DNA of 24,374 nt from a bacterium. Lineage in GTDB: Bacteria; Joyebacterota; Joyebacteria; Joyebacterales; Joyebacteraceae. This document shows positions 8,240 to 23,447 of this stretch, piece after piece. Positions within the stretch are counted from its first letter, which is position 1. Every line of letters begins with the position of its first letter. The stretch is taken from contig JALGZK010000028.1 in assembly GCA_025774935.1 (NCBI GenBank), positions 1 through 24,374 on the forward strand. The letters are read 5' to 3'. The translations under genes were made by a program, and so were the position numbers. Below the pieces are notes generated by a model that was not told the origin of the DNA, made no database searches, and was given only the letters and a program-made list of their open reading frames with translations.

Positions 8240-10051
8240 TTGAGTTTGACCATTATCGAGAAGATTATCGCCGGCCACTCAGGGCGTGAAGTGAGCCCGG
8301 GCGACATCGTCGACGTCGCGATCGACGCGAGGATCGCCCGCGACTTCGGCGGGGCGAACGTCGTGAAGAACATCGAGGAGCACGGTCTCGGCGTCGACGA
8401 CCCCGCGAAGACCTTCTTCACGTTCGACTGCAACCCCGGCGGATCCGACCAGAAGTACGCGGCGAATCAGCAGATCTGCAGGACGTTCGCTCGGGCCCGG
8501 GGAATCGGCGTCTACGACGTCGACAGGGGCATCGGGACGCATCTCGCCATCGACGAGGGGCTTGTTGGTCCAGGCGGAACGCTGGTGTCGACGGACTCGC
8601 ACGCCAACATCCTCGGCGCGATCGGCGCGTTCGGGCAGGGGATGGGTGACCAGGACATCGCGTGGGCGTGGGCGAACGGGGCCGTCTGGTTCAAGGTGCC
8701 GCCGTCCGTGAGGATCGTGGTGGAGGGAACGCCCGGACCGGCGGCGACTCCGAAGGACCTCGTGCTTCAGTGCCTGCGTCACTTCGGAGCGAGCGGACTC
8801 CTCGGCGTCGCCGGGGAGTACCACGGGAACGTCATAGACGGTCTCTCGCTCGACGGACGCGTGACGATGGCGTCGATGGCGACTGAGATGGGTGGGATCA
8901 TCACGTTCCTACCGCCGAGCGACGACGTCATCGAGCACTGCCGCGCAGCGGGCGCGCTCTCGACGCCGGCGTACGCTGACGGCGACGCATCCTACACCGG
9001 CGAGGTTACGATCGACGTCGACGGGCTTCGCCCGCTCGTCGCGCGGCCTGGTCACCCCGACGACGTCGTCGAGGTGTCGGAGGTCGCGGGCCGCAAGATC
9101 GACTCCGTGTTCATCGGATCGTGCACGAACGGCAGGTACGAAGACATGGTCGCTGCGGCTGGGATCCTCCGCGGCCGCTCCGTCGCTCCAGGCGTCGTTC
9201 TCAAGATCGTCCCGGCCACCGACAGGATCTGGCAGCTGTGTCTCGAGGAGGGGCTCGTCGACGTGTTCAAGAAGGCCGGCGCGCTTCTTGGGAACGCCGG
9301 CTGCGCCGGGTGCGCCGCCGGCCAGCTCGGGCAGAACGGTCCGGGCGAGGTCACGGTGAGCACCGGGAACAGGAACTACCCGGGGAAGCAGGGGAAGGGC
9401 GAGGTCTATCTCGCCTCTCCGGCGACGGCGGCCGCGTCAGCCATCGCAGGCGAGATCGTGACCGCGGAGGCGATCCCGGACAAGCCCGCCGTCTTCATGC
9501 CCGACCCCGATGCAGCGCGTGCCGGGGAAGCCGGGGGCGCCTCAGTCGCGTCGGGCGGTCGGCCGACGACGGTGCGGGGCAGAGTCTGGGTCGTCGACCA
9601 CGACAACGTCGACACCGACATGATCTACCACAACCGTCACCTCGCTGTGACCGACATCGCGGAGATGGGGCAGTACACGTTCGGGAATCTGGGCGGTTGG
9701 GAGGACTTCCCGAAGAACGTCGAGCCCGGCGACATCCTGGTGACCGGCTCGAACTTCGGCTGCGGGAGCTCACGCCAGCAGGCCGTCGACTGCTTCGCGA
9801 GCCTCGGCGTCTCGCTCGTGATCGCGAAGTCGTTCGGCGCAATCTACGAGAGGAACGCCATCAACGCTGGGATGCCGATCATGGTCGGCGATCTCTCTGA
9901 GTCCGGACTCTCGAACGGTGACGAGATCGAGGTCGACCTCTCGACCGGCGAGATCACGCACCTTGCTTCGGGGAAGACCTTCGGCGGACGGCCGTTCTCG
10001 GACGTCCAGATGCAGATCTACCAGCGCGGAGGCCTGCTCGCGGTCGGGTAG
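8240..10051 (+). CDS. Single-chain aconitase-family hydratase (LeuC-like plus LeuD-like domains)
   Basis: 603 residues from TTG 8240, preceded by AAGGAG; TTG 8246 is the other candidate, while an upstream GTG at 8183 has no ribosome site. These enzymes isomerise a 2-hydroxy tricarboxylate to the 3-hydroxy isomer using a [4Fe-4S] cluster. Residues 1-410 are the LeuC-like part: cluster ligands C295 (GSCTNGR), C355 and C358 (GCAGC), and D119-S120-H121. The family's DSHT reads DSHAN here. Residues 440-603 are the swivelling LeuD-like part with SNFGCGSSRQQ; its substrate loop reads HNRHLAV instead of a known YLRT or YLVY type. The fused length (about 600) is shorter than AcnA or AcnB (about 850-900). 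Next to citrate lyase genes, citrate/isocitrate is the natural guess, but the substrate is unproven. It heads an operon with CitDE and CitF. Confidence 0.87.
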   Translation: MSLTIIEKIIAGHSGREVSPGDIVDVAIDARIARDFGGANVVKNIEEHGLGVDDPAKTFFTFDCNPGGSDQKYAANQQICRTFARARGIGVYDVDRGIGTHLAIDEGLVGPGGTLVSTDSHANILGAIGAFGQGMGDQDIAWAWANGAVWFKVPPSVRIVVEGTPGPAATPKDLVLQCLRHFGASGLLGVAGEYHGNVIDGLSLDGRVTMASMATEMGGIITFLPPSDDVIEHCRAAGALSTPAYADGDASYTGEVTIDVDGLRPLVARPGHPDDVVEVSEVAGRKIDSVFIGSCTNGRYEDMVAAAGILRGRSVAPGVVLKIVPATDRIWQLCLEEGLVDVFKKAGALLGNAGCAGCAAGQLGQNGPGEVTVSTGNRNYPGKQGKGEVYLASPATAAASAIAGEIVTAEAIPDKPAVFMPDPDAARAGEAGGASVASGGRPTTVRGRVWVVDHDNVDTDMIYHNRHLAVTDIAEMGQYTFGNLGGWEDFPKNVEPGDILVTGSNFGCGSSRQQAVDCFASLGVSLVIAKSFGAIYERNAINAGMPIMVGDLSESGLSNGDEIEVDLSTGEITHLASGKTFGGRPFSDVQMQIYQRGGLLAVG

Positions 10052-10070
10052 CGGTCCGTCTCCAGAACCG

Positions 10071-10087
10071 CGGCCGGCAGCCGGCCG
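10071..10087 (+). other. Intercistronic hairpin between the hydratase and citDE
   Basis: CGGCCGG (10071-10077) and CCGGCCG (10081-10087) form a 7-bp all-GC stem with a CAG loop, 20 bases after the hydratase stop and 44 before the CitDE start. There is no T-tract. It probably stabilises or separates mRNA segments within the operon. Confidence 0.4.
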
Positions 10088-10131
10088 GGTCCGAGCGTTG
10101 ACTGAGACAGCTCGACACAAGGAGGAACGTC

Positions 10132-11358
10132 GTGAGCCAGAAGGGTCAGGCGGGCCGTCGTGGTGACAGGGTCCGTTCGGATTGCTGGATATCCGTCGAG
10201 CCCCGCGACAGCGGCGGCGTCTCGATCGAACTCAAGAGCAGGGTCGAGGCGATGTACGGCGCCGCGATCCGCGAGACGGTCGGGAACGGGCTTGCCGCGC
10301 TCGGTGTCGAACACGCGGCCGTCCAGGTCGAAGACACGGGCGCGCTCCCGTTCGTTCTCATGGCTCGGCTCGAGGCGGCGGTGAAGCGCGCGCTCCCGGA
10401 GACCGAGGCGGAGTTCCTTCCGGACATGGCGGCGTGGTCGACGTACGGCACCACGCGCGACCGCTTCCGGAGGTCGCGGCTCTACCTCCCGGGGGACCAG
10501 GCGAAGCTCATGATCAACGCAGGGCTCCACGGTCCGGACGGCGTCATCCTCGATCTCGAGGACAGCGTCGCCGCCGCGGAGAAGGACGCGGCGAGGTTCG
10601 TCGTGAGGAACGCCCTCAGGCAGGTCGACTTCCAGGGGGCGGAGCGCATGGTCAGGATCAACCAGATCCCGGCCGGCCTCGATGACCTTCCGTACGTCGT
10701 CCCGCACAACCCGCACGTCATCCTCATTCCGAAGTGCGAGACACCGGAGCACGTCACCGCGGTCGACGAGCGAGCCAAGTCTATCCTGGGGGAGAAGGGC
10801 ATCGACGCGCCGGTCTACCTCATGCCGATCGTGGAGAGCGCGCTCGGGTGCTGGCGCGCCTACGAGATCGCGGCCGCGGCCGAGTCGGTCGTTGCGCTCA
10901 CGATCGGACTCGAGGACTACACGGCGGACATCGGCACGCAGCGGACGAACGAGGGCCGGGAGAGCTTCTGGGCAAGGTCGCAGGTCGTGAACGCCGCGAG
11001 GGCGGCGGGCGTCCAACCGATCGACACGGTCTTCTCCGACGTCACCGACATGGAGGGACTCACCGCGAGCGTCCTCGAGGCGAAGGCGCTCGGATTCGAT
11101 GGGAAGGGTTGTATCCACCCGAGACAGATCGACGTCATACACCGCGGCTTCACGCCCGGAGAGGCGGAGGTCGAGAAGGCTAAGCGGATCGTCCTCGCGT
11201 TCGACGAGGCGGAGAAGAAAGGGCTGGGTGTCGTCTCGCTCGGGAGCAAGATGATCGATCCCCCGGTCGTCAAACGCGCGCTCCGAACCGTCGACCTCGC
11301 GGTCAGGTCCGGCGTCCTTTCCGAAGGCTGGAAGGAAGGAGGTGGGGAAGATGCCTAA
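10132..11358 (+). CDS. citDE: Fused citrate lyase acyl carrier (CitD) and beta subunit (CitE)
   Basis: 408 residues from GTG 10132 with AAGGAGG just upstream. Residues 1-95 match CitD: an opening strand with VRSD and ISVEP, then IELKSRVEAMYGAAIR and VEDTGALPFVLMARLEAAVKRA. Residues 110-395 match CitE: RLYLPGD, VILDLEDSV, RINQIP, LIPKCE, GLEDYTAD, FDGKGCIHPRQID and a C-terminal GVVSLGSKMIDPP. CitE cleaves citryl-ACP to oxaloacetate and acetyl-ACP. In classical operons CitD and CitE are separate proteins. Oddity: aligning on the Asp of ESSD/ESGD puts Arg15 where the prosthetic-group Ser of CitD lies, with Ser16 one place later. Its end overlaps citF by 8 bases, so the two are translationally coupled. 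CitC, CitG and CitX are not in this window. Confidence 0.92.
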   Translation: MSQKGQAGRRGDRVRSDCWISVEPRDSGGVSIELKSRVEAMYGAAIRETVGNGLAALGVEHAAVQVEDTGALPFVLMARLEAAVKRALPETEAEFLPDMAAWSTYGTTRDRFRRSRLYLPGDQAKLMINAGLHGPDGVILDLEDSVAAAEKDAARFVVRNALRQVDFQGAERMVRINQIPAGLDDLPYVVPHNPHVILIPKCETPEHVTAVDERAKSILGEKGIDAPVYLMPIVESALGCWRAYEIAAAAESVVALTIGLEDYTADIGTQRTNEGRESFWARSQVVNAARAAGVQPIDTVFSDVTDMEGLTASVLEAKALGFDGKGCIHPRQIDVIHRGFTPGEAEVEKAKRIVLAFDEAEKKGLGVVSLGSKMIDPPVVKRALRTVDLAVRSGVLSEGWKEGGGEDA

Positions 11359-12910
11359 GGCGGAACTCGTGAAGAACGCGGCGGGACGCATGGTCCCCAC
11401 CGAGGTCAACGGCAAAGAGGCGGTCCCGTACAAGGGTGTCGCGGCGCACCGGCCGACCGGCAACAAGGCGGCCCCGACGATCCCGACGGTCATGGACTAC
11501 CCGGACTGCGGCGACAAGACGGTCGAGGACATAAAGACCGCACTCGAGGCCGCCGGGATCCGCGACGGGATGACCGTCTCGACCCACCACCATCTCAGAA
11601 ACGGCGACTTCGTCGCGAACGCGGTCTTCGAAGCGGCGGCGGAGCTGGGCGTCAAAGATCTTATGTGGTTCCCGAGCGCGTCGTTCCCGTGCCACGCGCC
11701 GATGATCGACCATATGAAGAACGGCGTGATCCATCACATCGAGGGAAGCATGAACGGGCCACTGGGCGCGTTCTGCTCGTCGGGCGGCATGCGGGGGATG
11801 GGCGTCCTCCGTTCGCACGGGGGTCGGTACCAGGCCGTCCAGGACGGCGAGGTCCACATCGACATCGCCGTGCTCGCCGCGCCGACCGCCGACCCGTTCG
11901 GGAACGCGCACGGACTCGACGGTCCCACGGCGTGCGGGCTCCTCGGGTTCGGGCTCGCCGACTCGCAGTACGCGGACAAGGTGATCGTCGTCACCGACAA
12001 CCTCATCGAGTTCCCGTGCATCCCGTGGCAGATCCAGGGGAACTACGTCGACTACGTCACGACCATGGACGCGATCGGAGACGCCAGCAAGATCGTGTCC
12101 GGCACGACGCAGATCACGAAGAGCCCCGACAGGCTCCGGATCGCCGAGATGACGGCGCAGTTCGTGCGCGCCGCCGGCATCATGGAGCAGGGCTTCTCGT
12201 TCCAGGCCGGCGCGGGCGGGACGGCGCTCTCGTTCGCGATCTTCCTCACGGAGATGATGAAGGAGGCGGGGGTCACGGCGAGGTTCGTGCGCGGCGGAAG
12301 CACGCAGTACCTCACGCGGATGCTCGAGGAGGGGCTCACCGACTACATCCTCGACGGGCAGACGTTCGATCTCGAGGGCGTGCGTTCCATGCGCGAGAAC
12401 CCGAACCACGTGAACACGAGCCCGTTCACGAGCTACAACTACCACGGGAAGGGCAACTTCGCGTCGATGCTCGACTGCGTCGTGCTCGGGGCGACCGAGG
12501 TAGACGTCAACTTCAACGCGAACGTCGTCACGCACTCCGACGGGAAGCTCCTCCACGGGATCGGAGGATGGCAGAACTGCCTGTCCTCGAAGTGCACGAT
12601 CCTCCCTATCCCGTCGTTCCGCGACAGGATCCCCGTCCTGGTCGACGAAGTCACCACGCTCTGCGGCCCGGGCGAGCTCATCGACGTGGTCGTGACGGAG
12701 CGCGGGATCGCGATCAACCCGCGGCGGGAGGACCTGCTCTCCGCGGTGGCGGGCTCCGGCCTTCCGATCCGCTCGATCGAGGACATCAAGGCCGAGGTCG
12801 AGACGATCGTCGGCGGACCGCCCGCGAAGCCAGCGTTCGGCGAGCGCGTCGTGGCTGCGATCAAGTGGGTGGACGGGACGGTCATCGACTGCGTGCGGCA
12901 GCTCGGGTGA
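11351..12910 (+). CDS. citF: Citrate lyase alpha subunit (citrate:acetyl-ACP transferase)
   Basis: 519 residues from ATG 11351, with AAGGAGGTG 6 bases upstream; an in-frame GTG at 11342 lies inside that site and is rejected. It matches CitF along its length: the VSTHHHLRNGD motif near the start, SMNGPLGAFCSSGGMRG, AAPTADPFGNAHG, GFSFQAGAGGTALS, GGSTQYLTRMLEEGL and a VVTERGIAINPRR ending. CitF swaps the acetyl group on the carrier for citrate, giving citryl-ACP for CitE. Length is as expected (about 510). With the CitD-CitE fusion it supplies all three structural subunits of the lyase from two genes. It is the last gene of the operon and faces the AOR operon tail to tail. Confidence 0.94.
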   Translation: MPKAELVKNAAGRMVPTEVNGKEAVPYKGVAAHRPTGNKAAPTIPTVMDYPDCGDKTVEDIKTALEAAGIRDGMTVSTHHHLRNGDFVANAVFEAAAELGVKDLMWFPSASFPCHAPMIDHMKNGVIHHIEGSMNGPLGAFCSSGGMRGMGVLRSHGGRYQAVQDGEVHIDIAVLAAPTADPFGNAHGLDGPTACGLLGFGLADSQYADKVIVVTDNLIEFPCIPWQIQGNYVDYVTTMDAIGDASKIVSGTTQITKSPDRLRIAEMTAQFVRAAGIMEQGFSFQAGAGGTALSFAIFLTEMMKEAGVTARFVRGGSTQYLTRMLEEGLTDYILDGQTFDLEGVRSMRENPNHVNTSPFTSYNYHGKGNFASMLDCVVLGATEVDVNFNANVVTHSDGKLLHGIGGWQNCLSSKCTILPIPSFRDRIPVLVDEVTTLCGPGELIDVVVTERGIAINPRREDLLSAVAGSGLPIRSIEDIKAEVETIVGGPPAKPAFGERVVAAIKWVDGTVIDCVRQLG

Positions 12911-12975: not shown

Positions 12976-13713
12976 TCAGCGGAGGCCCCGGCAGGCGGGA
13001 CAGTCGGGGTCTCTCTCTATGTCGACCACGTCGATGCGGGGCTCCATCCCCTCGAGGATGAGCAGACGGCCCGTGAGGTTCTCGCCGACGCCTAGGAGGT
13101 ACTTGATGGCCTCCATCGCCTGGAGAGCGCCCATCGTGCCGGGCGTCACGCCAGGGATCGGCGGCTCGACGGCCGGTGGCGTGCGGGAGACGAAGCACTC
13201 GAGACACGGCGTCTCGGGTGGATGCAGGAACGACAGGTGGCCGGTGAGCTCCGAACAGGCGGCGAAGATCATCGGGATGCCGGTCGCAATGCTCGCTCGG
13301 TTCACGGCGATGCGAGTCTCGAGGTTGTCCAGGCAGTCGAGAACGAGGTCGGCGCCCTCGATGAGCTTCTTCGCGCCCCCATGGTCGATCTCCGCCATGT
13401 TCGGCACGACCTCGATCTGGGGATTGAACTCCTTCAGTCTCTTGGCCGCGAGGAAGGCCTTCGGCATCCCGACGTCCGCGAGGCCGTAGAGCGTCTGACG
13501 GTTCAGGTTCGAGAGCTCGACACGATCGCTGTCGCAGACCGTGATCTTCCCGACGCCGGCCGCGGCCAGGTAGATGCCGGCGGAGCTGCCGAGCCCGCCC
13601 ACTCCCGCCATGAACACGTGCGCGGCGCCGAGGCGCTTCTGCCCCTCCTTGCCCCAACCGTTCAATTCGAGCTGACGCAGGTAGCGCCCGAACTCCATCT
13701 TGGATCGCGGCAT
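12976..13713 (-). CDS. moeB: MoeB/ThiF-like E1 adenylyltransferase
   Basis: 245 residues from ATG 13713 with GAGGAG upstream. It adenylates the C-terminal Gly-Gly of a ubiquitin-like sulfur carrier. Visible: nucleotide loop GVGGLG (37-42), D61 and D63 then NLNRQ with R72, K85, and D126 with D129 (DCLDN). Zinc cysteines are C170-C173 and C238-C241 (CLEC; CPAC). The TPGTMGALQAMEAIKYLLG helix is typical. The non-zinc Cys usually found just before this helix in ThiF/MoeB is absent (AVEPPIPGVTPG), and there is no rhodanese domain. It therefore probably only adenylates, with sulfur delivered by another protein. Its partner is the MoaD-like protein 21 bases upstream. Location in the AOR operon points to pterin cofactor synthesis rather than thiamine. 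Confidence 0.88.
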   Translation of the reverse strand: MPRSKMEFGRYLRQLELNGWGKEGQKRLGAAHVFMAGVGGLGSSAGIYLAAAGVGKITVCDSDRVELSNLNRQTLYGLADVGMPKAFLAAKRLKEFNPQIEVVPNMAEIDHGGAKKLIEGADLVLDCLDNLETRIAVNRASIATGIPMIFAACSELTGHLSFLHPPETPCLECFVSRTPPAVEPPIPGVTPGTMGALQAMEAIKYLLGVGENLTGRLLILEGMEPRIDVVDIERDPDCPACRGLR

Positions 13714-13734
13714 GCGTCTCCTCTGTGGTCCGTG

Positions 13735-13974
13735 CTAGCCGCCGGAGACCGGCGGCTGGAGCGTCACGACATCGCCCTCGGCGGGTCGGTAGTTGAGCCT
13801 GCGGACCTTGCCGTCCGCGAACGCGAAGGCCACCAGGCCGTCGGGGATTCCGAGCTGCTCGAGGATCTCCTTGAGAGTCGGGGTGCCCTCGACCTCGACC
13901 TTCCTCGTGTAGATGTCGACGTCGGGCTTGAGCCTGTCCCTGAGCTTCCCGCCCGACCTCAGATAGATGACCAT
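13735..13974 (-). CDS. moaD: MoaD-like sulfur carrier
   Basis: 79 residues from ATG 13974 (GAGGA upstream). A longer open frame extends to 14385 but its extra part runs inside AOR and is not credible. The ending QPPVSGG supplies the free C-terminal Gly-Gly that is adenylated and thiocarboxylated. GDVVTLQPPVSGG is typical of beta-grasp MoaD/ThiS proteins. It would donate sulfur to form the dithiolene of molybdopterin. Lying directly between the AOR gene and the MoeB-like gene, it is most likely devoted to the tungsten/molybdenum pterin cofactor of this AOR. MoaE is not in this window. ThiS is the alternative, less likely from context. Confidence 0.87.
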   Translation of the reverse strand: MVIYLRSGGKLRDRLKPDVDIYTRKVEVEGTPTLKEILEQLGIPDGLVAFAFADGKVRRLNYRPAEGDVVTLQPPVSGG

Positions 13975-14009
13975 GTCGTCCTCGCGTTCGACCGCGGCCC
14001 GACCGCTCT

Positions 14010-15926
14010 CTACATCGCCTTCGGCTTGAGCTTCTGACCGCGGACCTTCGGGATCCCGCCGGGGATGGGTTCCCCGAGGTGCCCGAGCTTCTCGAGATTG
14101 TCCGCCGCGTATCCGATGCCGAGGTCCTCGAGGACCTCGCGCGTCGGGTTCCCGTTCCGGTCCCATCCGCGGTTCGCGTAGTAGTCGTCGAGCATCGCCT
14201 CGAAGTTCTCGCGGCCGACCACCTTGCCTTCCGCTGGTCCGTCGGGGATCGGTTCGTCGAGGTGCCGCGCCGGCGCTACGTCGAACCTCCGGCCCGGACC
14301 TCCGTTCCTTTCGATGTAGTGTGCCCGGTTCAGGTTCCACACCCGCTCCGAGACCCGCATGCACTCGTCGAGCGTGATGTCCCATCCGGTCAGGTAGCGG
14401 ATCGACTCGACGTGCTCCTCGGGCGTCACGTCGAGCTCACCCCAGAAGAGACGGCAGCAGCTCCACGTGTCGAAGAGCGGACGGATGTGCTGGAGGTAGA
14501 TGACAACCGGCGCCTTCCCCTCGATCGTGTCGCGGCCGAGCTCGATGTCGGTCGTGATCGTCCAGCTCTTGCTGTGGTGCGCGCCGATGTCGCACGTGCA
14601 GTAGGAGAGGAGCTGGGCGGGATACCACCGCGTGTCGTACCCGCTGAACTCCATGCCCTTCGCCTGGGAGGCGAACGCGATCGTGCCTTGGCCGAGGATC
14701 TCCGCGGCGCCCTTCGTGCCCAGCGCGAACGTGTCGCCGACGCCCCGGCGCTCCGCGATCATCCCGACGAAGTGCTCGAAATCGTCGATGTTGCCCCACC
14801 GCAACTCGTGTCCCTCGAGATCGTCTTTCGTGATGATCCCGCGCTGGTAGCACTCCATCGCAAATGCGACGGTGCTCCCGCCGCTCATCGTGTCCATGCC
14901 GATGTTGTCGAGGAGGTAGTTCGCGTAAGCGACGTGGTTGATGTCTGTGAACGCGCAGCTCCCGCCGACGAGCGCGATGGTCTCGTACTCGGGGCCTTCC
15001 TGGTAGGTGTCGGGCTTCCCCGGGATGCGCGCGCGTGTGTACTTGCCGCAGTTCATCCAGCAGCCGAAGCACGCCTTGTCGCTCACGAGGCAGTCCTCGA
15101 CGAGCCGCTCGCCGTCGATCTTCTCCCAGTCCTTGTGGTAAGTCTCCTGGAAGTTCTTCGTCGGGAAGCACCCGCGCTCGTTGGACCAGCCGACGAAGAA
15201 CGCGGTCCCGTACTTCTGCCACGGCGCCATGTTCGGGTGCGTCTTCGTGCGCTGGAGGATGTCGTAGGTGAGATTCCAGTGCGACTCGAGGTCGTGCGCG
15301 GGCAGCGATTTCGTCCCGCGGACCGCGATCGCCTTGAGCTTCTTCGACCCCATCACCGCTCCGACACCGCACCGCCCCGCCTGCCGCCCGAAGTCGTGCG
15401 TGATGCAGGAAAAGACGATCCCGTTCTCTCCCGATGGCCCGATGGTCGCGATCTGGAAGTCCTCGCCGAGATCCTTCTTCATCCGCTCCTCGAGCTCGAG
15501 CGACCCCATGCCCCAGTAGTCGCCCGCCGGGCGGAGCTCGACCGTGTCGTCATCTATATAGAGGTAGGAAGGCCTCGCGGCGATCCCCTCCATGACGATG
15601 AGGTCGTAGCCCGCGTAGCGGAGCTCCGGCCCGAGGTGACCTCCCATGCTCGAGTCGGCGTGGCCGTTCGTGGCAGGGGAGATGCAGCCGAATCCGACCT
15701 TCGACCCCACCGGGCAGAACGACCCCGTGAGGACTCCCGTCGTCACGATGAACCGGTTATCGGGGCCCATCGGGTCCGCGTCCCTCGGAACCTCATCGTA
15801 GAGGATCTTCGAGACGAAGCCCCGCGCGCCCAGCCAGTTCCGCGCGAGTTCGGGGTCGGTCGGGGTCCGCTCGATCTCCTCGGTCGAGAGGTTGATGCGA
15901 AGCGTGGTTCCTCCGAATCCGTCCAT
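14010..15926 (-). CDS. aor: Tungsten-type aldehyde:ferredoxin oxidoreductase
   Basis: 638 residues from ATG 15926 with GAGGG 5 bases upstream; the length fits the AOR family (about 600-650). It oxidises aldehydes to carboxylates with ferredoxin, or the reverse, using a bis-pterin tungsten (or Mo) centre and one [4Fe-4S] cluster. Cluster ligands: C286, C289 and C293 (CFGCWMNC), with C490 or C491 (TWSCC) as the fourth. E313 (GPEYE) matches the catalytic-region Glu. GTGVLTGS-like and CGVGAVMGSKKLKA segments mark the pterin-binding domain; NIGMD (341-345) is the family DxxGxD-like segment. Which aldehyde is used cannot be read from the sequence. It is the core of a six-gene operon with its own ferredoxin and cofactor genes. 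The enzyme is oxygen-sensitive, which implies an anaerobic life style. Confidence 0.95.
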   Translation of the reverse strand: MDGFGGTTLRINLSTEEIERTPTDPELARNWLGARGFVSKILYDEVPRDADPMGPDNRFIVTTGVLTGSFCPVGSKVGFGCISPATNGHADSSMGGHLGPELRYAGYDLIVMEGIAARPSYLYIDDDTVELRPAGDYWGMGSLELEERMKKDLGEDFQIATIGPSGENGIVFSCITHDFGRQAGRCGVGAVMGSKKLKAIAVRGTKSLPAHDLESHWNLTYDILQRTKTHPNMAPWQKYGTAFFVGWSNERGCFPTKNFQETYHKDWEKIDGERLVEDCLVSDKACFGCWMNCGKYTRARIPGKPDTYQEGPEYETIALVGGSCAFTDINHVAYANYLLDNIGMDTMSGGSTVAFAMECYQRGIITKDDLEGHELRWGNIDDFEHFVGMIAERRGVGDTFALGTKGAAEILGQGTIAFASQAKGMEFSGYDTRWYPAQLLSYCTCDIGAHHSKSWTITTDIELGRDTIEGKAPVVIYLQHIRPLFDTWSCCRLFWGELDVTPEEHVESIRYLTGWDITLDECMRVSERVWNLNRAHYIERNGGPGRRFDVAPARHLDEPIPDGPAEGKVVGRENFEAMLDDYYANRGWDRNGNPTREVLEDLGIGYAADNLEKLGHLGEPIPGGIPKVRGQKLKPKAM

Positions 15927-15962: not shown

Positions 15963-16355
15963 TCAGTCGCTGCGCCTGACCACGGTCAGGGCGCCGGTGT
16001 TGCAGACCTCGGTGCACTTGAGGCAGAGGTCGCACTTAAGAGGAGTCGGCACGTCGGCGTGCGTGTACAGCACGTCGATCGGACATGCCTCCACGCAGAT
16101 TCCGCAGTTGGTGCACTCGTCCGCGTGCAGGACGTAGGCCTCGCCCTCGAGGTGGATGGCGTCGACCGGGCACTCCTTGGCGCAGATCCCGCACTGCACG
16201 CAGAGTTTCGGCTCGAAGATCCCGGGCTCCGGGAAGTGCGGCTCGATCGCGATCGCGGCCTTCTTCGGGTTGATCTCTTTGTAGTGCCAGATGGTGCAGA
16301 TCTGCTCGCAGAGCCTACAGCCTGTGCAGCTCTCCTTCTTGATCTTGATCCTCAT
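15963..16355 (-). CDS. Polyferredoxin with four [4Fe-4S] clusters, AOR electron-transfer partner
   Basis: 130 residues from ATG 16355, with GGAGG 5 bases upstream. Sixteen cysteines fall into four groups: C10/13/16/20, C52/55/58/62, C81/84/87/91 and C108/111/114/118, enough for four [4Fe-4S] clusters. The two middle groups have the classical CxxCxxCxxxCP form. This is the architecture of the small electron-transfer subunits (HycB/AorA-like) that accompany many bacterial AORs. It has no signal peptide and acts in the cytoplasm. Gaps of 13 and 36 bases to its neighbours put it in the AOR operon. It probably carries electrons between AOR and a soluble ferredoxin or another acceptor. Confidence 0.92.
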   Translation of the reverse strand: MRIKIKKESCTGCRLCEQICTIWHYKEINPKKAAIAIEPHFPEPGIFEPKLCVQCGICAKECPVDAIHLEGEAYVLHADECTNCGICVEACPIDVLYTHADVPTPLKCDLCLKCTEVCNTGALTVVRRSD

Positions 16356-16368: not shown

Positions 16369-17061
16369 TCAGTCGACTTCGGGTTCCTGCGAGGGCGCGT
16401 CCTCCCGGACGAGAGTGCACCGAATCTCGATCGACGCGTTCGCCTTGCCCCCGCGAAGAGGTTCGCACATCCCGCGGAGCGTCATCGCCATCGAGTCCTG
16501 GACGAACGTGTTGAGCGGGAGTTCCTTTCCGTCGATGAGCAACCGGGTCGACCAGTGCTGCTCCGGCGAGGTCGCAAGGAGTTCCTCGATGAGGTCGCAG
16601 ATCTCCGCGATCTGCGCGGGCTGGAATGCGCGGCCGTCGAACCCCTCGGGTGCTTCGCCCACGACCGCGACCACTCCCTCGAGCGACGCGATGTCGAGGT
16701 CTCCGCCCGCGATCGCGATCTTCTTCCCTGGGACGCTCTTGAAGCCCTCGGCGAGTACGATTGCACCGGGAATGGCCTCCCTGAACGAAACCTCTTCGAG
16801 CCCTTCATCTCCGCTCGAGCGGAAGGATGTCGTCGTCGCGGCGCCGGCGAGGACCGACGTCGTGGCGCCGGCGGCGCTCATGCGCGCGGTGTCGGTATCT
16901 CCGCCGTCGAACGAGGGCTCCGAGTGCGTGTGCTTGATGTAGCAGACGGAGCGCCCGCGACGGACGAGCTCGCGCGTGAGCCCCTCGATGAGCGAGGTCT
17001 TGCCGGTGTCTTTCGTTCCGACGATCTGGATCCAGAAGTTGATCTTCATCGGCCTCGGCAC
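16369..17061 (-). CDS. mobB: MobB-like GTPase with C-terminal extension
   Basis: 230 residues from GTG 17061, preceded by GGAGGAG; ATG 17049 would drop four residues but lacks a well-spaced site. Residues 5-160 match MobB: Walker A GTKDTGKT (15-22), IKHTH (42-46), DTDTARMSAAGA and VLAEGFK. MobB binds GTP and assists attachment of nucleotides to the molybdopterin cofactor. Residues about 165-230 are an added domain (LLIDGKELPLNTFVQDSMAMTLRGM and then a SIEIRC strand). I know similar tails only as uncharacterised extensions of MobB in AOR neighbourhoods, and this is from memory. Its presence suggests the AOR cofactor is matured by an operon-encoded helper. MobA is not in this window. Confidence 0.82.
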   Translation of the reverse strand: MPRPMKINFWIQIVGTKDTGKTSLIEGLTRELVRRGRSVCYIKHTHSEPSFDGGDTDTARMSAAGATTSVLAGAATTTSFRSSGDEGLEEVSFREAIPGAIVLAEGFKSVPGKKIAIAGGDLDIASLEGVVAVVGEAPEGFDGRAFQPAQIAEICDLIEELLATSPEQHWSTRLLIDGKELPLNTFVQDSMAMTLRGMCEPLRGGKANASIEIRCTLVREDAPSQEPEVD

Positions 17062-17074: not shown

Positions 17075-17731
17075 CTAGTAGCGGAGCGCGAGCGCAAGGA
17101 GCACGCCCGACACACCTGAGACCGCGGCCATGATGCGATAGGAGAGCCAGCGCCCCGCGTCCCACACCGCGGAGTTCCTGAGAAGACGTTCCGCCGCCTT
17201 GTACCCCGCCAGAGCCGCGGGGATCGCGAGCGCCGCGGCGATCGGGCCCTGGACGAACTGGTAGTCGATCATCTTCTCGGGCATGCCCCAGTAGGGGTTG
17301 TGGAGGACGTCGCGTGCGAAGTACCCGAAGAGGACGAACGAGACGAACGTCACGATCGGGGCGCGGACGAGCGCGCCTCGGAGGCTGAGCGTGGGCTCCT
17401 GCGCGCGGGCCGCGTGCGCCTGCCGGGCCTGGAAGAGGCTGAACCCGATGTCGAAGATAGCGCCGACCATGAGGACCGCGGCGATCTTGCAGCCCCAGAC
17501 CGGGTGCTGGAGGAACTTGAAGGACGACGCCAGCGCGCCGAGCGCGAACGAGCTTCCGGGAACGTTCCAGAGGCGCCGCGCCAGGACGAGGAAGAAGATG
17601 CCCGCGGCCGTGAGGATGGGTGCCCTCGGGATATCGTGCAGCCAGGCGAACTCGCCGATCCCGAGCTCCGCCAGTCCCCAGAGGGAGCCGAAGAGGATGA
17701 CGCTCGCGGCGATCATGTGATTCCGGTTCAT
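17075..17731 (-). CDS. Multi-pass membrane protein of unknown function, first gene of the AOR operon
   Basis: 218 residues from ATG 17731 with AGGAG upstream. Hydrophobic stretches at about 6-28, 38-54, 60-76, 83-100, 120-142, 160-180 and 198-217 give six or seven helices. It opens with a Gly/Trp-rich SLWGLAELGIG in the first helix, has a PGSSFALGALASSFK loop-helix and a central AIFDIGFSLF. The size and small-residue-rich helices recall substrate-binding (S) subunits of ECF transporters or similar integral proteins, but no family is certain. Thirteen bases separate it from the MobB-like gene, so it is co-transcribed with the AOR genes. Uptake of tungstate, a cofactor precursor or an AOR substrate would fit; this is inference. 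Confidence 0.7.
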   Translation of the reverse strand: MNRNHMIAASVILFGSLWGLAELGIGEFAWLHDIPRAPILTAAGIFFLVLARRLWNVPGSSFALGALASSFKFLQHPVWGCKIAAVLMVGAIFDIGFSLFQARQAHAARAQEPTLSLRGALVRAPIVTFVSFVLFGYFARDVLHNPYWGMPEKMIDYQFVQGPIAAALAIPAALAGYKAAERLLRNSAVWDAGRWLSYRIMAAVSGVSGVLLALALRY

Positions 17732-17989: not shown

Positions 17990-19240
17990 GTGAGACCGCT
18001 CGAAGACCGCCTCGCGAGACGCGCGACGGGCAAGGAACCCTCGCCGATCCGCGAGCTCGTCGGCTACCTCAAGATCGACGGGATGATCTCGCTCGGGGGC
18101 GGCTACCCGAACCCGGACACGTTCGTGTTCGACCGCCTCGACATCGGGTTCAAGGGCGGTGCGACGACGTGCCTCGACGGCTCCGACCTCGTCGCGGCAT
18201 CTCAGTACGGACCGTCGAACGCGCATCCCGGTCTCGCCAACGAGATCATCGCGTGGCACAAGGCGAAGGACGGCGTCGACATGGACCCGTCCGAGCTCGT
18301 CGTGCTGAATGGCTCGCAGGAAGGGCTCTTCATGATGCCCTACCTCTTCTGCGACGCCGACGACTCGATCGCGCTCTCCGAGCCCGCCTACCCCGGCGCG
18401 CTCTCCGCGTTCAAGTCGTTCACCAGGAGCTTCGTCGCGGTCCCGCTCGACGCCGACGGCATGGACACGTCCGCGCTCGAGGCGAAGCTCGACGCGATGG
18501 CATCCGCTGGGGAGAAGCTCCCGAAGTTCGCCTACACTGTGCCGTCCGGTCACAACCCCGGCGGCGTCGCGCTCTCGCAGAAGAGGAAGAAGCACCTCCT
18601 TCAGATCGCGGCAAAGCACGACCTCCTCGTTCTCGAGGACGACCCGTACCAGCTGGTGCGGCTCGACGGCACCCCGCCCACGCCGACGATCCAGTCGATG
18701 GACCGTGAGGGGAGGGTCGTCCGGCTCGACAGCTTCTCGAAGATCTTCGCGCCGGGCCTCAGAATCGGGTACGCGTCGGGGCCCGCGGAGATCATGCGGC
18801 AGTTCGTGCTCTTCAAGCAGTCGTCGAACCTTCACACGAGCATGTTCATCCAGGCGCTCCTCCACAAGTTCATGACGACGGCCGGGCACGAGGGCTTCCG
18901 CGAGCAGATCTCGCTGAACTGCTCGTTCTACCGGGCGAACCGGGACGCGATGATCGACGCCGCGCGCGAGTTCCTGCCGCCGGAGGTCTCGTACAACGTG
19001 CCGGACGCCGGGATGTTCGTCTGGTTCGTTCTGCCGGACGGGTTCGACGCGAAGCGCATGATCGACGAGGACTGCGAGGACCTGAAGGTCCTCCTCGTGC
19101 CGGGGAACGCGTTCTCGACGACCGGCGGCCTAACGAACTGCATGCGGGCGAGCTACAGCATGGTCTCTCCCGATGGTATCCGGGAGGGGATGAAACGGTT
19201 CGGAGAGATGATTCGAAGAGAGAAGGAGAGAACGAAGTAA
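17990..19240 (+). CDS. PLP-dependent class I aminotransferase (2-aminoadipate/LysN-like)
   Basis: 416 residues from GTG 17990 with AGGAGG 5 bases upstream. Fold-type I aminotransferase: ISLGGGYPNPDTF near the start (typical of the LysN/Aro8/2-aminoadipate group), NGSQEGL for cofactor phosphate contact, PSGHNPGG with the conserved Asn, LEDDPYQLVR, and the Schiff-base Lys in SFSKIFAPGLRIGY. The C-terminal Arg for the carboxylate is likely in MRASYSM. These enzymes have broad specificity for 2-oxoglutarate/glutamate with 2-aminoadipate, aromatic or branched-chain partners. First gene of an operon with a beta-hydroxyacid dehydrogenase and hydratase subunits, so its 2-oxoacid is probably the product of that dehydrogenase: 2-oxoglutarate, 2-oxoadipate or 2-oxoisocaproate. 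Confidence 0.9.
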   Translation: MRPLEDRLARRATGKEPSPIRELVGYLKIDGMISLGGGYPNPDTFVFDRLDIGFKGGATTCLDGSDLVAASQYGPSNAHPGLANEIIAWHKAKDGVDMDPSELVVLNGSQEGLFMMPYLFCDADDSIALSEPAYPGALSAFKSFTRSFVAVPLDADGMDTSALEAKLDAMASAGEKLPKFAYTVPSGHNPGGVALSQKRKKHLLQIAAKHDLLVLEDDPYQLVRLDGTPPTPTIQSMDREGRVVRLDSFSKIFAPGLRIGYASGPAEIMRQFVLFKQSSNLHTSMFIQALLHKFMTTAGHEGFREQISLNCSFYRANRDAMIDAAREFLPPEVSYNVPDAGMFVWFVLPDGFDAKRMIDEDCEDLKVLLVPGNAFSTTGGLTNCMRASYSMVSPDGIREGMKRFGEMIRREKERTK

Positions 19241-19268: not shown

Positions 19269-20453
19269 ATGGCGAAGCGAACGGTCGTGACGATGCCGGG
19301 CGACGGGATCGGCAAGCCGGTGCTCGAGGAGGCCTTGAGGGTCCTCGACGCCGTGGGGTTCGAGGCGGACTACGTCCACGCCGACATCGGCTGGGAGTAC
19401 TGGATCACCGAGGGGAACGCGCTTCCCGACCGGACGATCGAGCTCCTCGAGAAGCACAGACTCGGTCTCTTCGGGGCGATCACGTCGAAGCCGAAGGACA
19501 AGGCGGCGGCCGAGATCGCGCCCGAGCTCAGGGACAAGGGCTACGTGTACTACAGCCCGATCGTCGGCATGCGTCAGCACTTCAACCTGGACGTTTGTCT
19601 CAGGCCCTGCAGGTCGTTCAAGGGTAATCCCTTGAACTTCATCCGGAAGGCCCCGGGCGGTGGTTTCGAGGAGCCCATGGTCGACGTCGCGATCTTCCGG
19701 CAGAACACCGAGGGACTCTACGCCGGCGTCGAGTGGACCGACCCGCCGCCGAACGTGCGGGAGGCGCTCGGGACGCACAAGAAGTTCGCGAAGTTCGCGG
19801 ACGTCCCAGGCGAGGAGCTCGCCGTCTCGACGAGAATCTTCACCCGCACGGGCTGCCGCCGCATCTGCGAGGCGGCGTTCTCCTATGCGAAGAAGTTCGG
19901 GTACAAGTCGGTGACGGTCTGCGAGAAGCCGAACGTCATCCGCGAGACGTCGGGTATGATGGAGTTCGAGGCCAAGAAGGTGTCGGAGAACTACCCGGGC
20001 ATCGACCTCTGGTCGACGAACATCGACGCGCAGATGATGTGGCTCACGAAGAACCCGGAGGACTACGGTGTGATCGTGGCCGGGAACATGTTCGGGGACA
20101 TCGTGTCGGACGGCTTCGCGGGTCTCGTGGGCGGACTGGGGTTTGCCAACAGCGCGAACATCGGCCCGGACTGCGCGGTCTTCGAACCGACGCACGGCTC
20201 GGCGCCCAAGTACGAAAAGCTCGACCCGCCGATCGTGAACCCGATCGCGATGATCCTCTCGGCGTGCATGATGCTCGACCACGTCGACGAGACGGAGAAG
20301 GCGACGGCGATTCGGGACGCGATCGCGAAGGTCGTCGCTGACGGGAAGGTCATGACGTACGACATGATGAAGCTACGCGGCGGTCCCGACGCGATCAGCC
20401 AGGGCGCGGCCACGACCACACAGGTCACGGACGCGATCATCTCGAACATCTAA
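19269..20453 (+). CDS. Isocitrate/isopropylmalate dehydrogenase family enzyme, possibly NADP-dependent isocitrate dehydrogenase
   Basis: 394 residues from ATG 19269 (GGGAGGT upstream). It oxidatively decarboxylates a 2R,3S-malate-type acid to a 2-oxoacid, using Mg and NAD(P). Seen: MPGDGIGKPV at the N-terminus, the substrate segment GMRQHFNLDVCLRPCRSF, RQNTEGLYAGVEW, GNMFGDIVSDG with metal-binding Asp, and THGSAPKYEK. CLRP.RxF and AGVEW resemble isocitrate dehydrogenase more than isopropylmalate dehydrogenase (usually LFANLRP). The Lys-Tyr after HGSAP matches NADP-type enzymes; NAD types usually have Asp-Ile. The Ser and Asn that contact isocitrate in E. coli Icd (SLN) are not obvious, so homoisocitrate remains possible. 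28 bases after the aminotransferase and ahead of hydratase subunits: consecutive steps of one pathway. Confidence 0.88.
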   Translation: MAKRTVVTMPGDGIGKPVLEEALRVLDAVGFEADYVHADIGWEYWITEGNALPDRTIELLEKHRLGLFGAITSKPKDKAAAEIAPELRDKGYVYYSPIVGMRQHFNLDVCLRPCRSFKGNPLNFIRKAPGGGFEEPMVDVAIFRQNTEGLYAGVEWTDPPPNVREALGTHKKFAKFADVPGEELAVSTRIFTRTGCRRICEAAFSYAKKFGYKSVTVCEKPNVIRETSGMMEFEAKKVSENYPGIDLWSTNIDAQMMWLTKNPEDYGVIVAGNMFGDIVSDGFAGLVGGLGFANSANIGPDCAVFEPTHGSAPKYEKLDPPIVNPIAMILSACMMLDHVDETEKATAIRDAIAKVVADGKVMTYDMMKLRGGPDAISQGAATTTQVTDAIISNI

Positions 20454-20458
20454 TGAGA

Positions 20459-20496
20459 GCCGGGACGGGGCGCCGCCGGCGCGGCACCCCGCCGGC
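20459..20496 (+). other. Intercistronic hairpin between dehydrogenase and hydratase genes
   Basis: CGGGG 20466-20470 pairs with CCCCG 20487-20491, GCCGC 20472-20476 with GCGGC 20481-20485, and an outer GCCGG 20459-20463 with CCGGC 20492-20496. This very stable GC stem begins 5 bases after the dehydrogenase stop and ends before the next ribosome site. There is no T-tract. It probably acts in mRNA processing or partial termination. Confidence 0.5.
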
Positions 20497-20510
20497 TGTC
20501 GGAGTGGAAC

Positions 20511-21773
20511 ATGGGAATGACATTCGCGCAGAAGGTGCTCGCGCGGGCGGCCGGGCTCGACAGCGTCGTGCCCGGGCAGATCGTCGCCGTCAAGCCCGAC
20601 CACCTTCTCACGCACGACAACACCGCGGCCATCATCGGGAAGATCGGCGATGACCTCGGGAAGCACGGGGTCGTTCGGAAGGACCTCTCGGTGATCGTCC
20701 TGGACCACGTCGCGCCCGCGGCCAATGAGAAGACGGCGACGGGGCACGCGCAGGTGAGGGAGTTCGTCGCTAAGCACGAGATCGACAACTTCTACGATGT
20801 GGGCGTCGGCGTCTGCCACCAGGTAGTCGTCGAGAAGGGGCACGCTCTCCCGGGGAAGGTCCTCGTGGGAAGCGACTCGCACACCTGCTCGTACGGCGCG
20901 GTGAACGCGTTCTCGACGGGCGTCGACCGCACCGAAGCGGCCGCGCTCATGCTCGTCGGTGAGACGTGGTTCAAGGTGCCGCCGACGATCAAGATCACGC
21001 TCACGGGCGAGCTCAAACCGCCCGTCTCCGCGAAGGACCTCATCCTCACGATCATCGGCGACATCTCGGCGGGCGGGGCGACCTACCAGGCGGTCGAGTT
21101 CCACGGGAACGTGGCGCCTCTCTCGATCGAGGACCGGTTCACCATCGCGAACATGGGGATCGAGATGGGGGCGAAGATCGCGGTCTTCCCGTTCGACGAG
21201 GTGACCGAGGCGTACCTCACGTCGGTCGGCGTCGACCGCTCGGCGTACGAGCCGGTCTGGGCCGATTCCGACGCCCAGTACGTGCGTGAGCTCACGTACG
21301 ACATGGGCGCGATCGAGCCGGTGGTGGCGCTCCCGCACAAGGTCGACAACGTTAAGCCCGTGGGGGAGGTCGAGGGTATCGAGATCAACCAGGCGCTCCT
21401 GGGCACGTGCACGAACGGGCGGCTCTCGGATCTCCGCGCTGCGGCGAAGATCCTCGACGGGAAGTCGGTCGATTCGTCGGTTCGGCTCCTCGTGCTCCCG
21501 GCGTCGAGGGAAGTGCTCGAGGAAGCGCTCGCGGACGGGACGATCAAGACGCTCGTCGCGGCCGGAGGAGTGCTCCTCCCGACGGGCTGCGGGCCGTGCC
21601 TGGGCGCGCACCAGGGCGTGCTGGCGCCCGGCGAGCGATGCCTCTCGACGGCGAATCGGAACTTCAAGGGGCGCATGGGCTGCAAGGAGGCCGAGATCTA
21701 CCTCGCGAGCCCGGAGACGGTCGCGGCGTCTGCGCTCAAGGGCAAGGTGACAGATCCGAGGAAGGTCGCGTAA
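20511..21773 (+). CDS. Aconitase-family hydratase large subunit (LeuC / homoaconitase type)
   Basis: 420 residues from ATG 20511; the nearest ribosome site is a short GGAG. Matches the two-subunit isopropylmalate isomerase/homoaconitase large subunit: VCHQVVVEKGHALPG, the SDSHTCSYGA motif (D122, S123, H124), ETWFKVPPTIK, cluster Cys C300 (GTCTNGR), C360 and C363 (TGCGPCLG), ANRNFKGRMG and IYLASPETVAAS. Length fits the archaeal-type LeuC (about 420) rather than the proteobacterial form (about 465). The small subunit follows 41 bases later. With the dehydrogenase just upstream it would supply the 3-hydroxy isomer. Substrate may be citrate, isopropylmalate, homocitrate or citramalate-derived; sequence by eye does not settle it. 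Confidence 0.92.
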   Translation: MGMTFAQKVLARAAGLDSVVPGQIVAVKPDHLLTHDNTAAIIGKIGDDLGKHGVVRKDLSVIVLDHVAPAANEKTATGHAQVREFVAKHEIDNFYDVGVGVCHQVVVEKGHALPGKVLVGSDSHTCSYGAVNAFSTGVDRTEAAALMLVGETWFKVPPTIKITLTGELKPPVSAKDLILTIIGDISAGGATYQAVEFHGNVAPLSIEDRFTIANMGIEMGAKIAVFPFDEVTEAYLTSVGVDRSAYEPVWADSDAQYVRELTYDMGAIEPVVALPHKVDNVKPVGEVEGIEINQALLGTCTNGRLSDLRAAAKILDGKSVDSSVRLLVLPASREVLEEALADGTIKTLVAAGGVLLPTGCGPCLGAHQGVLAPGERCLSTANRNFKGRMGCKEAEIYLASPETVAASALKGKVTDPRKVA

Positions 21774-21814
21774 CGACGCGGCGGCGCGACCGTACGGCGC
21801 GCAAGGAGGACGTG

Positions 21815-22300
21815 TTGCGAGTCTGGAAGTACGGAGACGACATCAACACCGATATGCTCTTCCCCGGGAAGTACACCTACACCTGCTCGACGGCCGAGGA
21901 GGTGAAGCCTCACCTTCTCGAGGACCTCGATCCCGAGTTCGCGGGGAAAGTGCAGGCCGGTGACATCGTGATGGCGGGGGAGAACTTCGGGTGCGGAAGT
22001 TCTCGCGAGCAGCCGGTGCTGGGTTTGAAGGCGGTCGGCATCGCGGCCGTCGTAGCCGGGAGCTTCGCGCGGATCTTCTACCGCGCCGCGATCAACCAGG
22101 GCCTCGTCCTCATAGAGGCTCCGGACGCGGTGGCGGCCTACGGGGACGGAGACGAGGTGACTCTCGACGTCGAGGCCGGAACGATCTCTGTCGGAGGCAA
22201 GGAGTTCACGTTCCCGCCGCTCCCTCCGGAGATTCTAGCGATCCGGGACGCGGGCGGACTTCTGAACTACGCGCGGGGTAAGCTCGAGGCACGCGGTTAG
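21815..22300 (+). CDS. Aconitase-family hydratase small subunit (LeuD type)
   Basis: 161 residues from TTG 21815, with GGAGG 5 bases upstream; the frame is open much further upstream, but that part runs inside the large-subunit gene. This is the swivelling domain that closes over the substrate: DDINTDMLFPGKYTYT at the N-terminus, GENFGCGSSREQPV in the middle, FARIFYRAAINQGL and GDEVTLDVEAG. Length is as expected for archaeal-type LeuD (about 160-170). The specificity loop after the first Pro reads YTYT. In characterised relatives YLRT goes with isopropylmalate and YLVY or YLVM with homoaconitase, so this enzyme fits neither. It pairs with the large subunit encoded just upstream. Confidence 0.9.
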   Translation: MRVWKYGDDINTDMLFPGKYTYTCSTAEEVKPHLLEDLDPEFAGKVQAGDIVMAGENFGCGSSREQPVLGLKAVGIAAVVAGSFARIFYRAAINQGLVLIEAPDAVAAYGDGDEVTLDVEAGTISVGGKEFTFPPLPPEILAIRDAGGLLNYARGKLEARG

Positions 22301-22313
22301 CAGGGGGTGCCCG

Positions 22314-22859
22314 ATGGCGAGACTCAACGTGCTGAATCCGGAGACTGCGGAGGACCGGACCGCGGAGCTTCTCCGGCAGGTCGGGGAGGCCAGGGGCGGC
22401 ACGATTCCGAACATCTACCGGGTGATGGCGAACTCACCCTGGGTCCTGAGGGGCTACCTCGCGTTCAGCAGGAACATAGGACAGGGCAAGCTCGAGTCAT
22501 CGCTCAGCGACATGGTGCACCTCGCGTGCGCGGAGCTGAACGGTTGCGCGTACTGCATCGCCGCGAACACCGCGATGGCGACGAAGAGCGGCAGCCTCAC
22601 TGCGGAGCAGGCGCTCGCTGCGCGGAAGCTCGAGGGAAGCGACGAGCGAACGTTGTCCGCGCTCGCGTTCGTGCGTGAAGTGCTTGAGACGCGGGGCAAG
22701 GTGAGCGATGACATCCTGAAACGGCTGAGGGACGCAGGGTCTACCGACGAAGAGATCATCGAGCTACTCGCCGTCACTGTGGCGGCTACGTTCACGAACT
22801 TCATCAGCAGCGTCGCGCTGCAGGACTCCGAGTTCCCGGAGCCGCCGGCGCTGGCGTAG
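22314..22859 (+). CDS. AhpD-like (carboxymuconolactone decarboxylase family) protein lacking the active-site His
   Basis: 181 residues from ATG 22314, 13 bases after the hydratase small subunit; the ribosome site (GGGGGTG) is moderate. All-helical AhpD-like protein with the signature ELNGCAYCIAAN: E74, C78, C81 and N85. In AhpD this is E...C..C...H, where the His helps the CxxC act as a peroxidase/disulfide reductase. Here it is Asn, so the proton relay is altered although the CxxC pair remains. Possible roles are thiol-based redox protection of the Fe-S hydratase, or a repurposed scaffold. The C-terminal LLAVTVAATFTNFIS helix is typical of the family. It sits inside a metabolic operon. Confidence 0.82.
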   Translation: MARLNVLNPETAEDRTAELLRQVGEARGGTIPNIYRVMANSPWVLRGYLAFSRNIGQGKLESSLSDMVHLACAELNGCAYCIAANTAMATKSGSLTAEQALAARKLEGSDERTLSALAFVREVLETRGKVSDDILKRLRDAGSTDEEIIELLAVTVAATFTNFISSVALQDSEFPEPPALA

Positions 22860-22898
22860 CCGCACCGCGATTCGGGCGATCGGAAGAAGGAGAGACAA

Positions 22899-23447
22899 AT
22901 GGCTCTGAGAGACGATGCCAGGAAAGCGCTGCCGGAGCTCGAGCTCATCAAGGACGAGGGGCTCCGCGAGAAGACGCTCGACGTGTGGGTCGACGCGATG
23001 GAGCAGGGTGGCTGGAGCATGGACGATCTCAAGGACATCCCGTTCACGCTTCTCATCGATACCGACTGCACGCTGCTCGAGCACACGCGTGGCGTGACGC
23101 GGACGGCCGTGGCGATCGCCGACTCGCTCACGGAGACCTACGGCGGCCGGATGCCGATCAACCGCGACCAGCTCATCTCGGGCGGGATCCTCCACGACGT
23201 CGGTAAGCTCGTGGAGTACAAGCGCGAGGGCGGGAAGATCGTGAAGAGCGAGATGGGTAAGGACCTCCGTCATCCGTTCTCGGGCACCGCGCTCGCGTTC
23301 AAGCACGGGTTGCCGACCTCGATCTGCCACATGATCGCCGTCCACGCGAAGGAGGGCGAGGGCGCCCGTCACACCACGGAGGCGTTCATCATCAACCACT
23401 CGGACTTCGCGAACTTCGAGCCACTCAAGAACAAGGCCGGCGGATAG
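22899..23447 (+). CDS. HD-domain metal-dependent phosphohydrolase
   Basis: 182 residues from ATG 22899, preceded by AAGGAG with a somewhat long gap. An HD domain covers about 58-175: H62 (EHTRGV), the H99-D100 doublet in ILHDVGK, H125 (RHPFSG), H149 (AVHAKEG) and D169 (NHSDF). That is the full HD metal set plus the extra histidines of two-metal members. Such enzymes cleave phosphate from nucleotides or other phospho-compounds. There is no GYP motif, so it is not a cyclic-di-GMP HD-GYP protein. The substrate is unknown. It closes the aminotransferase-hydratase operon, 39 bases after the AhpD-like gene, and a terminator-like stem follows. Confidence 0.88.
   Translation: MALRDDARKALPELELIKDEGLREKTLDVWVDAMEQGGWSMDDLKDIPFTLLIDTDCTLLEHTRGVTRTAVAIADSLTETYGGRMPINRDQLISGGILHDVGKLVEYKREGGKIVKSEMGKDLRHPFSGTALAFKHGLPTSICHMIAVHAKEGEGARHTTEAFIINHSDFANFEPLKNKAGG

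Follow-up and report, generated by a model that had tools for sequence, protein, structure and literature searches.

We analyzed a 24,374-bp window, which is one entire contig (G000:C8) of a bacterial genome of 3.24 Mb that is 96% complete, and within it a block of genes at 8240-23447 encoding a citrate-lyase-like enzyme, two aconitase-family enzymes, an isocitrate dehydrogenase (ICDH)-like enzyme and an aldehyde:ferredoxin oxidoreductase (AOR). With a probability that we put at roughly 70%, the sequence evidence suggests that the genes of this block make up the lower half of a pathway for lysine degradation, which would end in the cleavage of homocitrate to acetate and 2-oxoglutarate. A wider proposition, on which we are evenly divided, is that a reversed alpha-aminoadipate pathway serving lysine catabolism is widespread and undescribed, that its homocitrate lyase would have arisen from citrate lyase through loss of the prosthetic group and would use free CoA esters, and that in the phylum of this organism a ferredoxin-dependent AOR may be the allysine dehydrogenase. 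Neither a homocitrate lyase nor such a pathway was found in the open-access papers searched, subscription papers and preprints being outside the scope of that search.

In the proposed route, lysine would be converted to allysine by a lysine-6-dehydrogenase-like enzyme encoded outside the window. The AOR (14010..15926, minus strand; PF02730/PF01314) would oxidize allysine (2-aminoadipate semialdehyde) to 2-aminoadipate and pass the electrons to ferredoxin, and a class I aminotransferase (17990..19240, plus strand), assigned from its PDB relatives to the KAT-II/LysN (kynurenine/alpha-aminoadipate) group, would yield 2-oxoadipate. The ICDH-like dehydrogenase (19269..20453, plus strand), a putative homoisocitrate dehydrogenase (HICDH), would act as a reductive carboxylase, joining 2-oxoadipate and CO2 to homoisocitrate, which HacAB would turn into cis-homoaconitate and AcnCD into homocitrate. 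HacA (20511..21773, plus strand) is a homoaconitase-type large subunit (TIGR01343 hacA_fam, 520.4 bits against a cut-off of 385.7), and HacB (21815..22300, plus strand; TIGR02087, 173 against 109) is the small subunit, starting at a TTG at 21815 that is preceded by AAGGAGG. AcnCD (8240..10051, plus strand; PF00330/PF00694) is a fused aconitase-family protein with LeuC-like and LeuD-like domains. CitF (11342..12910, plus strand; PF04223, 444 bits) and CitDE (10132..11358, plus strand; PF06857 and PF03328) would then together form a homocitrate lyase, and the 2-oxoglutarate released could take up the next amino group. CitDE consists of a CitD-like domain fused to a CitE-like lyase and starts at a GTG at 10132 with a strong Shine-Dalgarno sequence, AAGGAGG, upstream. 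Every gene named in a preliminary description of this sequence was found where it had been placed, including the citrate lyase genes citDEF, although that description had not stated that CitD and CitE are a single protein.

Evidence for homocitrate-type substrates came from the aconitases. A CitDE alignment search returned 530 relatives, and 80 loci were kept for locus counts. Across these 80 loci AcnCD and MmgE/PrpD proteins were mutually exclusive, with AcnCD in 19, PrpD in 29 and both in none. The aconitase of the PrpD-type clusters is a fused protein, and 18 of 18 matched the homoaconitase model TIGR00139 at E<1e-150, with no other model that strong; the two that were checked scored 745.6 (L171) and 843.2 bits (L172) against a cut-off of 529.9. 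HacAB of the window falls below this cut-off, yet HacB has the PGKYTY loop. This loop governs substrate choice in the aconitase/homoaconitase family. It reads FPGKYTYT in the window HacB, YPGKYTY or a near variant in the fused sister homoaconitases, and APGRYFH in an aconitase encoded at a separate locus (C39) of the same genome. The corresponding loop of AcnCD is YHNRHLAVT; this protein is below all NCBIfam equivalog cut-offs, and its best PDB relative is an isopropylmalate/citramalate isomerase. The interchangeability of AcnCD and PrpD suggests that two successive half-reactions are catalyzed. Fungi and Thermus use two enzymes for the homocitrate half-reactions, and AcnCD or PrpD could plausibly dehydrate a tertiary tricarboxylate to the cis-aconitate analogue that HacAB then hydrates.

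The ICDH-like enzyme points to the same substrates. Its best NCBIfam model is the homoisocitrate dehydrogenase AksF2, at 271 bits and thus below the cut-off of 540, and the top four PDB matches to its N-terminal half are all homoisocitrate dehydrogenases. An SPIVxxR motif is found in the window protein, in the HICDH of S. pombe and in 32 of 32 complete cluster ICDHs, where the isocitrate dehydrogenase (IDH) at C39 has SANVAMR. The same protein families could in principle shorten other 2-oxoacids, namely 2-oxoisocaproate via isopropylmalate or 2-oxobutyrate via citramalate; the LeuCD and LeuB families are common to those pathways, and the PDB relationship of AcnCD would fit. We consider this very improbable, since the sister clusters pass homoaconitase models and not LeuC models, and since neither SPIVxxR nor an association with lysine genes fits leucine. 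Leucine/isopropylmalate biosynthesis as such was ruled out in this genome by its lack of HMGL-family genes.

The lyase of the proposed lysine route differs from citrate lyase at the carrier residue. Ser14 is the residue to which the phosphoribosyl-dephospho-CoA prosthetic group is attached in the CitD of E. coli and Klebsiella. The position holds Ser in 5 of 5 canonical CitD proteins, whereas 82 fused proteins have Arg (78) or Lys (4), the window protein having Arg15, within a near-invariant (R/K)(S/A)DC motif. CitG was detected in 0 of 39 cluster or family genomes by a search that did recover it in four archaeal controls and in E. coli. Genes for CitC, CitG and CitX were also missing from the surroundings of every cluster locus retrieved by that stage. 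The CitD domain is thus unlikely to act as the known carrier. With neither the carrier serine nor CitG present, CitF probably moves CoA from acetyl-CoA to homocitrate, as an acetyl-CoA:homocitrate CoA-transferase, and CitDE would cleave the resulting homocitryl-CoA with regeneration of acetyl-CoA; the substrates of the lyase are thus probably free CoA esters. By NCBIfam, CitDE scored 285.5 bits with TIGR01588 (cut-off 443.4), with RipC as the second-best model, and CitF 484.9 with TIGR01584 (cut-off 501.45); PDB relatives of CitF are 2hj0 and 1xr4. In a tree, the CitF proteins paired with fused CitDE are separate from those of E. coli and Azospirillum. In more distant fused CitDE proteins at two loci (L047 and L048, in genomes G020 and G022), Lys takes the place of the carrier serine and the RSDC motif is missing; these proteins form a second subfamily that lacks the prosthetic serine, and G022 has a piperideine-6-carboxylate (P6C) dehydrogenase as well.

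A different mechanism, also compatible with the lysine route, would have the acyl group bound covalently to another residue or through an unfamiliar prosthetic pathway, perhaps with involvement of the HD-domain protein (22899..23447, plus strand; PF01966). Retention of the CitD domain, the conserved motif at the lost serine and the co-occurrence of the HD protein with the cluster speak for this option, which we nonetheless hold doubtful given the loss of Ser14 in all 82 proteins, the absence of CitG from all 39 genomes and the lack of the three accessory genes near the retrieved loci. The HD protein (~180 aa) occurs in 26 of the 80 loci, in several phyla and at 39-48% identity. Its AlphaFold model has a pLDDT (predicted local distance difference test) of 93.6, and the best PDB match, the HD domain of YhaM, gives no role; the His-Asp pair is intact in the window protein and replaced by Ile-Asp or Ala-Asp in most others.

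Lysine genes are associated with the cluster. P6C dehydrogenase exceeded its cut-off in 27 of 50 cluster genomes and in 5 of 41 genomes of other phyla (Fisher p=3e-5, kinship ignored), a frequency that rules it out as a universal cluster partner; incompleteness of metagenome-assembled genomes blurs genome counts of this kind. The gene lies within the cluster itself in G009 (798.5 bits), in Anaerolineales L174 (758.3; NF050084 cut-off 730) and also in L031. Its neighbor is lysine 6-transaminase (TIGR03251, 644 against a cut-off of 520.8) in genomes of Ignavibacteria type and, in others, saccharopine dehydrogenase. An apparent aldehyde dehydrogenase fusion in L174 (open reading frame 17451-20096) was an assembly artefact in which P6C dehydrogenase and FtsH are joined across unknown bases.

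No P6C dehydrogenase was found in the genome of the window. Within its family, an ortholog of the AOR was present in 11 of 13 genomes, and the two that lack it, G007 and G009, are the only two with P6C dehydrogenase (p=0.013); in G009 that gene occupies the position of the AOR operon, on the same strand. Because the two enzymes are complementary in the family, AOR likely oxidizes allysine there in place of P6C dehydrogenase, which agrees with the earlier expectation that it handles an aldehyde/acid pair. The family also has a lysine dehydrogenase (LysDH)-like protein, encoded next to a sodium symporter; its best PDB match, by which it was assigned, is PH1688 (3abi), which we take to be an L-lysine dehydrogenase. 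The best PDB relatives of the window aminotransferase are 1x0m, 3aov, human KAT-II and Thermus LysN (2egy).

The preliminary description had offered lysine-type 2-oxoacid metabolism as an alternative for 17990-23447. The link to lysine stands and extends over both operons, not this one only, but the direction appears to be degradation instead of synthesis, because homocitrate synthase and lysW were not found. A search of the same genome for homocitrate synthase and the other lysine genes of the alpha-aminoadipate pathway returned no PF00682 gene and no lysW, which ruled out that biosynthetic pathway in its usual form; PF00682 (the HMGL family) was recovered in 14 of 14 positive controls. With no HMGL-family gene, the genome has no homocitrate, isopropylmalate, citramalate or Re-citrate synthase. 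One might still suppose that lysine is made via alpha-aminoadipate with the lyase running backwards, from acetate and 2-oxoglutarate to homocitrate, in place of the synthase. Homocitrate synthase is indeed absent, the genome does encode homoaconitase- and HICDH-like enzymes, and every step is formally reversible. Such a pathway is nevertheless highly unlikely, given that lysW was found in 0 of 7 family genomes and exceeded its cut-off in 4 of 45 genomes tested overall, that P6C dehydrogenase, lysine 6-transaminase and LysDH indicate degradation, and that the equilibrium of citrate-lyase-type reactions lies towards cleavage.

The block had initially been read as a partial or reversed segment of the tricarboxylic acid (TCA) cycle leading from 2-oxoglutarate to acetate and oxaloacetate. 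The outline of that claim, an aminotransferase-fed route running backwards to acetate and a 2-oxo acid, is probably right, but the evidence sits one carbon higher, with 2-oxoadipate going to acetate and 2-oxoglutarate, and the block probably does not represent part of the TCA cycle. The separate C39 locus (L049; ~43,500-52,500) has an IDH gene divergent from citrate synthase, followed by malate dehydrogenase and a LeuCD-type two-subunit aconitase, so that the cluster IDH and aconitase are not the sole copies in the genome and the second set is the one linked to citrate synthase. Citrate synthase was detected in the genus of the window and in G008 and not in the other sampled genera of the family, and three family genera carry the cluster but lack citrate synthase.

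If the substrate were citrate after all, glutamate or 2-oxoglutarate would pass through isocitrate and citrate to acetate and oxaloacetate, possibly as an ATP-free cleavage for the reductive TCA cycle. CitF and CitE are homologous to true citrate lyase (38.7% and 39.6% identity to the E. coli proteins), AcnCD could be an ordinary aconitase, and some family members have no other enzymes between citrate and 2-oxoglutarate. We judge this unlikely in view of the complete C39 set, the assignment of the sister-cluster aconitases to homoaconitase by model, the HICDH motif of the cluster ICDHs, the homoaconitase loop shared by the window HacB and the lysine genes associated with the cluster; moreover, a single aconitase would be enough for citrate.

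Several observations weigh against the lysine route. None of the window's ICDH-like enzyme, CitDE, CitF, AcnCD and HacAB reaches any NCBIfam equivalog cut-off for its substrate, and the substrates proposed here therefore rest on motifs and on sister clusters. Gene identities, synteny, co-occurrence, motifs and the serine loss are observed, while substrates, direction and the CoA mechanism are inferred. The reductive carboxylation of 2-oxoadipate is unfavourable unless it is pulled. P6C dehydrogenase is missing from 23 of the 50 cluster genomes, its complementarity with AOR is based on two genomes, and LysDH and AOR are also present in family genomes that lack the lyase module. Finally, clusters at loci outside the family showed no related aminotransferase.

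The arrangement is conserved. Searches with tblastn showed that family relatives keep gene order and orientation, wholly or in the part covered by the contig: FlgD-like, AcnCD, CitDE and CitF, then on the opposite strand ThiF, MoaD, AOR, ferredoxin, MobB and the membrane protein, and then aminotransferase, ICDH-like, HacA, HacB and HD. The core of ICDH, HD, AcnCD or PrpD, aconitase, CitDE and CitF recurs as a compact operon across many phyla. Chance clustering was ruled out by this synteny and recurrence, and the earlier suggestion that the AOR operon goes with the operons on either side of it was borne out. In three family genomes that are nearly complete and have no CitF, all aconitases and ICDHs are absent too. 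Together with the cluster-bearing genera that lack citrate synthase, this indicates that the cluster is gained and lost as a module. The 80 retained loci lie in Effluviviacota/Eisenbacteria, KSB1, WOR-3, Gemmatimonadota, Planctomycetota, Ignavibacteria including the cultured genus Melioribacter (L173, L205), Bacteroidota, Chloroflexota, Calditrichota, Acidobacteriota and others. The genome paper on Melioribacter roseus describes a TCA cycle, reports that ATP-citrate lyase is absent and leaves lysine unmentioned (PMC3534657), and the main text of the Effluviviacota paper mentions neither citrate nor lysine (PMC11323493).

The AOR operon is complete on the minus strand at 12976-17049. Besides AOR it encodes a MoeB/ThiF-type adenylyltransferase (12976..13713; NCBIfam) with a putative role in maturation of the pterin cofactor for AOR, a MoaD/ThiS-like sulfur carrier (13735..14013; PF02597, PF14451), a 4Fe-4S ferredoxin-like AOR partner (15963..16355; Pfam Fer4 families) and a MobB-like cofactor protein (16369..17049; TIGR00176, 81.1 against a cut-off of 76.2; PF03205). 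A small membrane protein without a Pfam match (17075..17731, minus strand) is kept with this operon in the family, as judged from synteny. An AhpD/CMD-family protein (22314..22859, plus strand; PF02627) is limited, among the sampled relatives, to the genus of the window. Directly upstream of AcnCD lies, family-wide, a FlgD-like protein with a T9SS-type C-terminus (7282-8043) that has no obvious metabolic link. Genes for a cytochrome P460-like protein and then a membrane-anchored c-type cytochrome (5360-7034) are kept by the cluster in the same genus and some relatives, and a PAS-containing hybrid histidine kinase (2040-4985, minus strand), a possible regulator, is kept next to it in several relatives.

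Several known systems resemble parts of the block. As in the citrate lyase of E. coli and Klebsiella, homologous lyase, transferase and carrier domains occur in equal order and acetate is the proposed product; here, however, CitD and CitE are fused, Arg or Lys replaces the prosthetic serine, CitG is absent with CitC and CitX not nearby, and the operon is shared with homoaconitase- and HICDH-like enzymes. The alpha-aminoadipate lysine biosynthesis of fungi and Thermus (LYS20/21, LYS4, LYS12, LysN) employs a homoaconitase, an HICDH-type enzyme, a 2-aminoadipate aminotransferase and two aconitase-family enzymes, as is proposed for the cluster, but here homocitrate synthase and lysW are lacking, a lyase replaces the synthase and the direction would be reversed. 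The upper part of lysine degradation via 2-aminoadipate is present in cluster genomes (TIGR03251, NF050084, saccharopine dehydrogenase, LysDH-like protein). The known lower parts of that pathway run through glutaryl-CoA or 2-hydroxyglutarate, whereas the lower part proposed here would run through homocitrate. Itaconate degradation (RipC, citramalyl-CoA lyase) resembles the proposed free-CoA mechanism, in which CoA transfer is followed by cleavage by a CitE-family enzyme, and differs from it in that here the transferase is of CitF type, the CitD domain is retained and another substrate is proposed. With tungsten AORs the window enzyme shares both AOR domains and a single operon holding ferredoxin and pterin cofactor genes, but it is neither the curated AOR (222 versus 868 bits) nor GAPOR (25 versus 1300), and its proposed substrate is allysine.

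Under automated annotation these genes will be named as citrate lyase, aconitase and isocitrate dehydrogenase, and many uncultured phyla will accordingly be assigned a partial or reductive TCA cycle. If the lysine route is correct, an orphan AOR would gain a role and a new enzyme activity would be added, and citrate-lyase-like enzymes without the prosthetic group would provide a test of whether the chemistry requires it. Melioribacter, as an apparent cultured carrier, makes the idea directly testable. The genomes concerned would then carry a route from lysine to acetate, which would alter what is predicted for the breakdown of protein and necromass in anoxic sediments.

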